DNA of 64,000 bases from contig JAKULF010000011.1 in assembly GCA_022661535.1 (NCBI GenBank), positions 2,108,001-2,172,000 of the forward strand. The letters run 5' to 3'. Under the pieces are notes generated by a model. It saw only the letters and a list, made by a program, of their open reading frames with translations, had not been told where the DNA came from and made no database searches. Made by a program: the position numbers and the translations under genes. Of the stretch, positions 14,633 through 18,034 are shown one piece after another (position 1 is the stretch's first letter; every line of letters starts with the position of its first letter). This DNA is from Eutypa lata. Lineage: Eukaryota > Ascomycota > Sordariomycetes > Xylariales > Diatrypaceae.

Positions 14633-16350
14633 TAATCAGGAGAACTATTTTTATTGCATGAGAAGCAAAATTTTGCTGATGGTGCTTGAGGGGTGTGGCA
14701 TATCTTCGCTAGATTTGTTTGACTCGTGGAGAAATGAATGATATTTCTCATTGCTAGTTACGGTGGTACACTACGAAAATGAGACTAGAGGGACGCATCA
14801 GCTGTTATCATCATCATCATCATCATCAGGACGGCATCATTTTGTTCGAATATGCCAAGGAGAGCTTGGCTGGCGTTTGTTTGTTTATTTGCTCCGAGGG
14901 AGGGAGACTTTTGCCATTATGAGATACATACCTAGCTCTTTTTATCAGCAGAGGGGAAAATAGGGAGAGGATGGATTGGTCTGATTTAGCACATTCTTGC
15001 GGGCGTTTTCTTTTTTAAAAAATTCCGATTCATTCTTGCGGACAGGGTTACTTGATGCTTGCTCCTTCATGATGAATGAATAATTTCTACCTGGAGTGGT
15101 ATTACGCTACCTACCTACCTACCTACCTAACCTACCTATGTATCAGCAGATAACTCGGCTAATAGCTGGCTGGTTGGGTTGCTGCTCAATTCTGCATGTG
15201 CATACCTACCTAGATAGATGGATGGATGGATGGATGAGCTCGATGTAAGATTATGAAAGAACAGACAGATAAAAGAATGGGATGAACCGGTGTAATAAGA
15301 CCGGGCTGAAGGAGCATATGCATGAACTGGATGCTATGTGATGATGACGACTAGGAACATAACATCGATGTCACAAGTATGGAGGTGATATCGCATAATA
15401 TCGTAACTGAAAGAAAGGGAGAGAGAGTATTTAGTGTTGTGTAAGCGCGCGTTACGTTTGGTGACCTCTTATCTGGAAAGTAGGTGGTGGAAATATGTCT
15501 TAGATGATACCTTCACATATTACCAGTGGAATACTAATTGCTTAATAATAGTTCAATGTTAGCCAGTTAGTTTCTTTTTTATTAAAAAAAATCATACAAC
15601 TTATAATAATAGCTGATGCACACTGAATCAATTTGATGATGTGGGCAATTGATCTGGTTGTTGAATTCTCTAAGTACCTAAGTACCTACGGTGGGGCCCA
15701 CAAGCCAGCCCTGCCAGCCCTGCCAGCTAAGAACCATGCAATCACGTGACGGTCCCACAATAGTTATCTTAAGGTTTCGGCCCGTAAAGGTTATCTGAGC
15801 CCCGCGCAAATCACGTGATTATTTTCACCAACTATGCGACGAATGCACCACCCGCAACAATTTCTTATAAGCATTCAGCGCTGAAGCGACCTGACCTGGT
15901 GGGTAACTTGTATTATGAATAATATGATCGGCCTACATGTAGTTTGTATATATAGTGTAAGCTTTGCCTAGGTTGTTAAAGAAAATTGCTGGCAATGATA
16001 ATGCTCTATCGCCATACGTAGGGATATAGATCAGTTCGATGCTCTAGAATGATGATTCTTAGGGGCTTGAAATGGTGCCTTGTTATCAGTAATCTGTCTA
16101 CTCGACGCTTGGTGCTAGCAGGTTTAGACGGCTGCTTGCTTGGTGGTATGTGTTGGTTGGTTTCCTTGAATACACTCTGAACATGATGTGACAGCTTTCT
16201 CTCAGTACCCATCTGCTTGCAATACGCATTCAAGTTTCAAGTAACTAAGGCAAGAGTGGGGCCTCTCTCATCCCCTCTTTAGCCGAGACCCCGCACCATT
16301 GACATTATAATCGTGTATAACCGGCAAACCCTCCAACAACAACAAACATC
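14633..16350. other. Intergenic, microsatellite-rich
   Basis: No gene seen. It contains an (ATC)n run near 14808-14827, a CTAC tetramer run near 15109-15135, a GATG run near 15220 and two TCACGTGA palindromes at 15742 and 15811. Its right end is the upstream flank of the tRNA gene. Confidence 0.6.
15742..15818. promoter_or_regulatory. Pair of TCACGTGA (E-box) palindromes
   Basis: Perfect TCACGTGA palindromes occur at 15742-15749 and 15811-15818. CACGTG is the core bound by bHLH factors such as Cbf1 and SREBP-type proteins. The target gene is unclear: the nearest transcript is the tRNA gene about 530 bp to the right. Confidence 0.35.
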
Positions 16351-16555
16351 GGTCAGATGCCCGAGCGGTTAGTTTACAATCCCCAGTTTCTTTCTACATC
16401 ATGCTAATCTCTACTAGGTCATGGGGCGCGGTTCGTTAGTACTTTCTACCCTGAAAATGATGAGGAATACCATACTAACCAACCTATTAGAGGATGTACT
16501 ATCCAAAAACTTCCGCGTAGAGCAATCTTCGTGGGTTCGAATCCCACTCTGATCA
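16351..16555 (+). tRNA. tRNA-Leu(CAG) with one canonical intron plus two GT-AG insertions
   Basis: The ends form a standard tRNA: acceptor stem GGTCAGA (16351-16357) pairs with TCTGATC (16548-16554, one G-T wobble), followed by discriminator A. The T-arm is GTGGG-TTCGAAT-CCCAC (16531-16547). The variable arm AGA-GCAA-TCT (16519-16528) is the long type II arm of Leu or Ser tRNAs. Removing 16372-16417 (GTTTAC...GCTAAT...CTACTAG, 46 nt) and 16435-16490 (GTTAGT...TACTAAC...TATTAG, 56 nt) leaves D-stem CCC/GGG, anticodon stem CGCGG/CCGCG and loop TTCAGG-T, that is anticodon CAG. The loop is interrupted at the normal 37/38 position by an 18-nt intron (16494-16511), whose GGAT/ATCC hairpin is the usual anticodon-intron pairing. 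The mature RNA would be 85 nt. A T7 run at about 16570 is a Pol III terminator. The D-loop (14 nt) is slightly long, so the first insertion's edges are less certain. Confidence 0.8.
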
Positions 16556-18034
16556 CACAAGATCCTTACTTTTTTTGTAATACTTCTTTCACTTTATCAA
16601 GTAGCGATTTTATTTTCTCCCAGTCTTATAGGGATGTGCTATGCTTTTGCGATGACCATGTAGGTCCTAGGTGCGAGATTTCTAAGTTTCTGTTTAGGTC
16701 AGCCATCTGAACCAATCAAATCATTCATATTTTTCAATGCTTAGGTGGTTTTTAAGGGATCTTCAATCACCAACTTCAATTTCAGTCAGTTCAGTCAATA
16801 AGATTTTTGTGATTCTTCTGGCTGTGCAACAAGTGTAGGTTTCTTGCACCTGTGCGGATAGTTTCTCCCAGCACTTGGCAGCCGGGCCGTCAGACTTGCG
16901 ACGGCCCGCTCACCACATACCCTACGTATCACCACCGCGCTGTCAGTCACCCTCTAGTTGTTGCCACTTAGTTGTCACCACCTAGCTATAAGACGTAACC
17001 ATTATTTACTTGGTTACATGATTTAAAGATATAGAAACTTTAAAACCCGTGTAAATAGCATCATCACTCACATTAAGGGGAAAGACGGTTCTACAGCACC
17101 AGCACGGCCACACAATACTCTTCATCTCCTCTATGCAATGCGACTGTTATTAGTTATATATATATGTGCTCTGGTCATATCTTGGGTGAAATGAGTACAT
17201 ATTCATATTGCGGCATGAGTTGCAGGGACTATTGACTTCCGTCGTCTTCTATACTACCTGGGCATCTTGAGACTCAAACCATAGATTTGCGTAGGCTTTA
17301 ATCATTTATTACAGTGGTATACAACAATTAATCAATCAGCAGAACAAGATTTATTCTACTAAATATACATACTACTTCTTAATGATAACAAGCTTAACTC
17401 CTATATTGGGAGTAGGTAACCTATTAGACCATAGTGTGATATTTCAGTGATATTTTTCGAAACCCCAGAATCTCTTATATGCGTAACACTTGTTACATTA
17501 TCTCGTGAGCTTATTTCCATAGGTTAGTAATTACCTATATCTGACATTGTTTTAGATGATAGATAATACCTATAGCACAAGGAAGGCACCGGAGCCCAAG
17601 TATTCTTTTCATTTCATATCTTCACGCTCAGCGAAATACATAAGGTTCATAAATGTATGTGTAATGTATATATCAAATTCCATTCAAAATGCCCGTTTGT
17701 GCCCTTTCTAATGCCCGTCACCTAAAACACGAGGCTAACTCCTGGACTTTAATATCAATTAATGATTCACGAGGCCATCTACTTCCTCTCATGACCACCA
17801 ATTCCACCCATAGGGTTTAGGCCATAGACACCAAGTCTTTTAGGAAAGAAATGTAAACCAGAACATAGTACATAACTCCGAAAGCAAGTAAATCACTAAG
17901 GCTAGTGCTTTATTGTTCAAGAGCATGCCCAAGTTGTAAGAAGCAGGAAAAGGGGATTGATAGTTGTGACAAAGCCCATCAAATTCGCAAAGGCGTAATG
18001 CACTCGCTTATTCTAGGTCTTCTCTATGCCTGAT
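16556..18034. other. Intergenic after the tRNA gene
   Basis: It starts with the Pol III oligo-T terminator near 16570. The remaining 1.4 kb shows no convincing coding frame or RNA gene. It also holds the 3' side of the minus-strand Zn2Cys6 gene. Confidence 0.55.

Follow-up and report, generated by a model that had tools for sequence, protein, structure and literature searches.

Additional GT-AG introns of spliceosomal type in tRNA genes of Eutypa lata, one of them within a leucine anticodon

Results

A tRNA-Leu(CAG) gene with three introns

The window analysed here, a 64,000-nucleotide stretch of an Eutypa lata contig, carries at 16351-16555 of its plus strand a tRNA-Leu(CAG) gene that is interrupted by two GT-AG introns and, in addition, by an ordinary 18-nt intron at 37/38. 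The window lies on contig 7, at 2108001-2172000, and its chorismate synthase is 100% identical, across the 393 residues of the query, to a protein assigned to Eutypa lata UCREL1, with Diatrype, Monosporascus, Hypoxylon and Daldinia as the next named matches. The features of the locus are as follows:

16303..16345, plus strand: upstream region with the TATA-like stretches TTATAAT and GTATAA and a CAACAACAA stretch, compared by eye and of presumed role
16351..16367, plus strand: exon 1 (nt 1-18), holding most of box A, TGCCCGAGCGG (16358-16368)
16368..16417, plus strand: intron 1, of spliceosomal type, in the D-loop at 18/19; 50 nt, GTTAGT...GCTAAT...TACTAG, putative branch A at about 16407
16418..16434, plus strand: exon 2, 17 nt, the last base of which is C34 of the anticodon
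16435..16490, plus strand: intron 2, of spliceosomal type, in the anticodon at 34/35; 56 nt, GTTAGT...TACTAAC...TATTAG, putative branch A at about 16478
16491..16493, plus strand: exon 3a, A35 G36 G37
16494..16511, plus strand: canonical tRNA intron at 37/38, 18 nt, as called by ARAGORN on the spliced sequence
16512..16555, plus strand: exon 3b, with box B, GGTTCGAATCC (16534-16544), through the discriminator A73
16570..16576, plus strand: T7 run, Pol III terminator-like, 14 nt past the gene end

In the raw window, ARAGORN calls no tRNA and no Rfam model matches at gathering score, the loosest ARAGORN setting giving a false Gly call. Once both segments are deleted, ARAGORN returns tRNA-Leu(cag) with an 18-nt intron at 37/38. 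This bears out a sequence-only reading of the same DNA, which had proposed that a tRNA emerges when two GT-AG segments are removed, that its canonical intron sits at 37/38 and that a T run follows the gene. The boundaries which that reading gave to segment 2, separating C34 from A35-G36, are kept, and an intron occupies the same site in a second copy of the gene on contig 5. Segment 1 had been placed at 16372-16417; its 3' end holds, and its 5' end is moved 4 nt upstream to 16368 because the intron of the contig 5 copy opens with GTAAGT there, the D-loop thereby becoming 10 nt long.

We also looked for a better fold through other boundaries, another point raised by that reading, by removing the 25 GT-AG segments (35-90 nt) of the gene singly and as 92 disjoint pairs. 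Single removals gave one ARAGORN call (Cys) and pairs gave eight, two of which are Leu(CAG) and differ solely by the start of intron 1 (16368 versus 16372). The remaining six pair calls (Ile, Asp, Ala, Gly and Thr twice) are unsuited to the long variable arm and were rejected, as was a tRNA-Thr(CGT) with a single long intron at 37/38, which would set the anticodon CGT on a type II body. Among the GT-AG boundaries tried, the type II body suits only Leu(CAG). As for the internal promoter, the G that ends box A belongs to intron 1, as its opening base, and stands in for G19, so that box A is still readable with the intron present; box B is intact, and the longest internal T run of the gene is 3.

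A second interrupted copy and an intact Leu(CAG) gene

A search of the whole genome (54.5 Mb, 29 contigs) with 28 bases around box B, allowing up to 3 mismatches, found six places: the window gene, a Leu(CAG) gene on contig 5 (pattern match 532984-533011, minus strand), three Leu(AAG) genes and an intact Leu(CAG) gene, L006, which has only a 38-nt canonical intron. The contig 5 gene carries both extra introns at the same sites as the window gene. The two interrupted copies are identical at 81/81 mature bases, and their spliceosomal-type introns differ by 15 substitutions in 106 aligned bases together with 14 gap columns (6 substitutions and the 14 gap columns in intron 1, 9 substitutions in 56 bases in intron 2); the contrast between 0/81 and 15/106 substitutions has a Fisher p of 1.7e-4. 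The 300-base flanks of the copies align no better than controls, with scores of -8 and 8 versus up to 2 and 41 among 40 control pairings each. Selection thus appears to have held the spliced Leu(CAG) product constant while the introns drifted. Since the intact L006 exists, the window gene may be dispensable. CAG with a box B no more than 50 bases downstream occurs 30 times in the genome (reversed-pattern control 11), and among these matches ARAGORN names only one as Leu(CAG), L052, which is the same gene as L006.

Interrupted genes for six isoacceptors

Pattern searches of the genome bring the interrupted tRNA genes to at least 10, with 12 introns and 6 isoacceptors; these counts depend on the box B pattern and are therefore lower bounds, as genes with an unusual box B would be missed. 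Eight of the genes, beyond the two Leu(CAG), came from two kinds of search. The branch motif combined with YAG and box B gave 23, 32 and 23 matches in three distance ranges (reversed-pattern controls 7, 14 and 16), and the anticodon loop combined with box B gave 33 for Lys(CTT) (control 24), 36 for Leu(UAG) (control 19), 24 for Arg(CCT) (control 14) and 3 for Lys(TTT) (control 6). Flanks were examined for 18 places, the remaining rows being judged from the matched text alone, in some cases only 80 letters. The interrupted genes are:

Leu(CAG), two copies: introns at 18/19 and 34/35
Leu(UAG), L098: D-loop intron at 18/19, a site shared with Leu(CAG) intron 1
Lys(CTT), four copies (L087, L088, L089, L097): one intron at 30/31
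Lys(TTT), L109: one intron at 30/31, as in Lys(CTT)
Arg(CCT), L099: intron at 19/20
Ala(AGC), L090: intron at 15/16

After splicing, all 10 genes give the expected isotype and a cloverleaf, and each also has a canonical intron at 37/38, of 8-30 nt. Unspliced, and with introns of up to 60 nt allowed, ARAGORN passes over 3 of the 10, assigns 5 to a wrong isotype and reads 2 (L088 and L109) as Lys with a 54-55-nt intron upstream of the anticodon, outcomes that change with the settings.

The four Lys(CTT) copies are identical at 73/73 exon bases in all 6 pairs, their introns differing per pair by 5-12 substitutions and 5-12 gap columns. For Arg(CCT) and Ala(AGC), intron-free paralogs were found: L108 matches the spliced L099 at 72/73 bases (base 1 differs) and L100 matches the spliced L090 at 72/72. 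The splice points of the Arg and Ala genes are thus fixed independently, within one or two sliding positions, and both inserts prove to be GT-AG with CTAAY 12 bases before the end.

Some ARAGORN names were not followed. L100, called Lys(ctt), was taken as Ala(AGC) since the spliced L090 matches it throughout, and L039, called Lys(ctt) as well, was taken as Ala(CGC) by eye. L061 (Leu(tag)), L110 (Leu(aag)) and L103 (Arg(cct)) were set aside as odd tRNA-like sequences because they combine a short variable arm with a leucine anticodon or lack a clear anticodon loop; if L061 or L103 were real, there would be one more copy of Leu(UAG) or Arg(CCT). L061 and L110 belong, with L111 and C10:5824108-5824164 (matched text), to a tRNA-like family with a short variable arm, acceptor pairing at 6/7 and leucine-type anticodon loops (TAG, AAG, CAG), in which some 46 nt of conserved sequence stand at the 37/38 place (GTAGGGCAGCTTG.GTCC...AGCAATAAGTCC); its members are either real tRNAs or a Pol III-derived repeat. 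L102 and L103 are related to each other, with D arms, no clear anticodon loop and one acceptor mismatch each (by eye), ARAGORN giving Arg(cct) with odd geometry for L103 and no call for L102. The branch-motif search also brought up three similar repeats with D-arm-like words and box B, seen as matched text only (C1:163025-163123, C7:2493180-2493275 and C9:2028770-2028867).

The lysine and Leu(UAG) genes

All five Lys genes found by the anticodon-loop searches, four Lys(CTT) and one nuclear Lys(TTT), are interrupted, and so is the one well-formed nuclear Leu(UAG) gene found. A genome-wide search for the intact Lys(CTT) junction, with up to 3 mismatches, found none; its three matches comprise two on the small contig 19, which is taken as mitochondrial, and one without a surrounding tRNA (by eye). 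The short contigs C3, C19, C23 and C25 hold repeated organelle-type tRNA clusters, some of them multi-copy with equal scores, as if mitochondrial sequence had been assembled more than once. In the reading frames of three window genes, the lysine codons AAG and AAA are used 70 and 39 times.

All five Lys genes (L087, L088, L089, L097 and L109) share a leader hairpin that takes in tRNA bases 1-2 and a trailer whose hairpin engages the 3' strand of the acceptor; their T run starts at a distance of 45-47 nt from the gene end. Across the 4 distinct rows, none of the 14 trailer pairs is broken where neither letter is missing; a two-sided change occurs in only 1 pair, and 159/500 shuffles are equally good. 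Hairpin-like trailers are also seen by eye in the Ala(AGC) genes L033, L090 and L100, with or without the extra intron. A role of the Lys hairpins in delaying folding is therefore no more than conceivable, as intact Ala(AGC) genes also appear by eye to carry such hairpins in their trailers.

Could the interrupted loci be tRNA pseudogenes with chance insertions, the work being done by intact genes elsewhere? The sequence-only reading had taken an intact Leu(CAG) elsewhere, combined with a lack of spliced reads from this locus, as the mark of a pseudogene; an intact gene does exist in L006, as do the intact Arg(CCT) and Ala(AGC) paralogs. The pseudogene reading nevertheless does not fit, because exons are identical while introns diverge, because every Lys gene found is interrupted, and because splice-site and branch motifs recur in the inserts at almost uniform distances, and we regard it as very improbable. 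Ala(AGC) L090, seen in one copy, ends its intron in AAG, has a disturbed box A and may be a pseudogene.

Class of the extra introns

The 12 tRNA introns measure 50-71 nt and all start with GT and end with AG (11 YAG and 1 AAG). Their 5' ends are GTTAGT in three cases, GTAAGT and GTACGA in two each, and GTAAAT, GTAATT, GTATGT, GTACGT and GTCAGT in one each, among which GTAATT, GTACGA and GTAAAT are weak sites that count against a spliceosomal reading. A YTRAY branch motif is present in 12/12, its A lying 10-14 nt before the end in 11; in the Lys intron of L087 the branch A lies at 16 by a looser motif or at 12 by CTAAC. For comparison, six mRNA introns from three window genes (VPS11, an SNT1-like gene and chorismate synthase), with inferred boundaries, measure 41-77 nt, start with GTAAGT in 4/6 and have YTRAY in 5/6 at 9-28 bases before the end, with none in the sixth. 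By this small control, the tRNA introns are similar in length to mRNA introns of the genome; their branch spacing is tighter than in the six mRNA introns, which counts against the spliceosomal reading. Group I and group II introns were rejected on these lengths and on the lack of any hit to an Rfam model at gathering score within the window, the catalytic core of either needing far more than 71 nt.

The extra introns sit at 15/16, 18/19, 19/20, 30/31 and 34/35, all away from the canonical 37/38. Their removal as bulge-helix-bulge introns would have a precedent in archaea, where noncanonical tRNA introns exist according to the passages of PMC8450103 that deal with them. In both copies, Leu(CAG) intron 2 can form 7/7 bulge-helix-bulge-like pairs one base out of register, which counts in favour of such removal and against the spliceosome; the best scores of the other introns, shifts allowed, are 3-6 of 7. 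Archaeal enzymes cut after the second bulge base, and the shifted motif, cut in this way, would yield the anticodon CGG. The motif consists of a central helix of 4 bp flanked by two bulges of 3 nt each. At the actual junctions, 0/12 introns form all 4 central pairs (range 0-3), and bulge-helix-bulge removal leaves the GT-AG ends and the branch motifs unexplained, so that we give it very little credence.

TTTT is absent from the first 7 introns (P 0.004 by composition shuffles, for introns related by descent), and 28/33 intron-like control segments also go without it; the Leu(UAG) intron contains one TTTT, which counts against. The missing internal TTTT thus carries little weight as support. 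Between tRNA families, the introns resemble each other with a mean z of 2.9 (54 pairs) versus 2.1 to mRNA introns (72 pairs), and a mobile-intron origin is not claimed because the similarity between families is little clearer than that to mRNA introns.

An apparent intron in the U6 gene

U6 is a Pol III transcript in other eukaryotes, and its snRNA gene can contain mRNA-type introns in fungi such as S. pombe. In this genome, the Rfam U6 model matches L107 (C1:1131445-1134557, minus strand) at 64.7 bits as a continuous stretch with a poor 5' third. By eye, a 5' exon lies upstream (...GAAACGATACAG), followed by GTTAGT...TTCTAAC...AAACAG (55 nt) and then by AGAAGATTAGCATGG; the 5' part of this U6 is misaligned by the model. 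The U6 of this genome thus seems to carry a 55-nt mRNA-type intron between ACAG and AGA, within the ACAGAGA box.

This bears on the polymerase that reads the interrupted tRNA genes. If they were read mainly by Pol II within longer transcripts that were spliced there, the tRNA being processed from the spliced RNA, the access of the spliceosome would be accounted for. However, box B is present in 10/10 of the genes and box A in 9/10 (by eye), a T run of at least 6 follows 9/10 (none is seen in the 27 nt downstream of the Ala gene), the upstream TATA/CAA stretches resemble those of intact tRNA genes (by eye), and the U6 of the same genome, transcribed by Pol III in other organisms, likewise appears to contain an mRNA-type intron. 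We therefore consider transcription mainly by Pol II most unlikely.

Discussion

The anatomy described for the window gene recurs in 10 genes, in which exons are conserved and introns diverge. It is highly probable, in our opinion, that these are working nuclear tRNA genes and that the spliceosome takes the extra introns out of Pol III precursors before the endonuclease removes the intron at 37/38. The spliceosomal reading already made from the window sequence is strengthened by the second copy, the five further isoacceptors, the intron-free paralogs and the apparent U6 intron; that Pol III transcribes the genes, that the spliceosome removes the introns and that it acts before the endonuclease is what we infer from these sequences.

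Under the proposed mechanism, Pol III would transcribe the genes from the internal boxes A and B, giving a precursor with one or two short introns of the U2 type; the nuclear spliceosome would recognise these by intron definition. Their removal would restore the D-loop, the stem of the anticodon arm or the anticodon as such, and only after this could the tRNA endonuclease recognise and remove the ordinary intron at 37/38. Because the Leu(CAG) anticodon forms only after intron 2 has left, and because the endonuclease reads the pairing between anticodon and intron, the spliceosome would have to act first. The yeast tRNA endonuclease acts outside the nucleus, and an extranuclear endonuclease would enforce the same order here.

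A stronger proposal, which we hold to be probable with less assurance than the mechanism itself, is that the spliceosome is required for tRNA production as a second tRNA splicing pathway. All of the Lys and Leu(UAG) supply, part of the Leu(CAG) and Arg(CCU) supply and possibly part of the Ala(AGC) supply would then pass through the spliceosome and afterwards through the endonuclease, and splicing capacity would directly limit the decoding of AAG and AAA.

Nuclear tRNA splicing is, in its textbook form, the work of an endonuclease and a ligase. The canonical introns at 37/38 are of this kind and are present in all 10 genes, whereas the extra introns lie elsewhere in the tRNA, measure 50-71 nt and have GT-AG ends and branch motifs. 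The introns of fungal U6 genes are likewise short GT-AG introns with a branch motif in a Pol III gene, but the hosts described here are tRNAs of several isoacceptors, with an endonuclease-type intron in the same transcript. Algal ectopic tRNA introns can be several per gene, some of them outside 37/38, and are of the bulge-helix-bulge kind.

Spliceosomal introns of lichen and other ascomycete rDNA, which yeast removed from Pol I transcripts according to PMC8527467, resemble the tRNA introns in their ectopic position within a structural RNA that a polymerase other than Pol II transcribes; they differ in that the host is a Pol I ribosomal RNA, with no interplay with the tRNA endonuclease. Archaeal noncanonical tRNA introns, as treated in the tRNAscan-SE 2.0 paper (PMC8450103), can also be several per gene, some of them outside 37/38, and the order of their removal may matter, but they form the bulge-helix-bulge that is absent at the junctions here. 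In the passages of that paper on noncanonical introns these are treated as archaeal, and the string 'spliceosom' is absent from its text. Among the matches listed, by title and abstract opening, from an open-access library of published papers with few subscription titles, we found no report of spliceosomal introns in tRNA genes. Spliceosomal introns in non-mRNA genes are known, from U6 and rDNA, and a tRNA host that needs a second splicing machine appears to be new. Viral and prokaryote collections scanned with exact pieces yielded 0 matches, as expected.

If the introns are spliced as proposed, the spliceosome of this fungus handles Pol III tRNA precursors, including that of Leu(CAG) with its 17-nt internal exon, and a single RNA passes in turn through two unrelated splicing machines, the one rebuilding the anticodon that the other needs. 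If this is true, tRNA finders can miss or misname such genes. Because Arg(CCT) and Ala(AGC) each have paralogs that carry the intron and paralogs that lack it, the gain of an intron by a structural RNA could, moreover, be tested directly.
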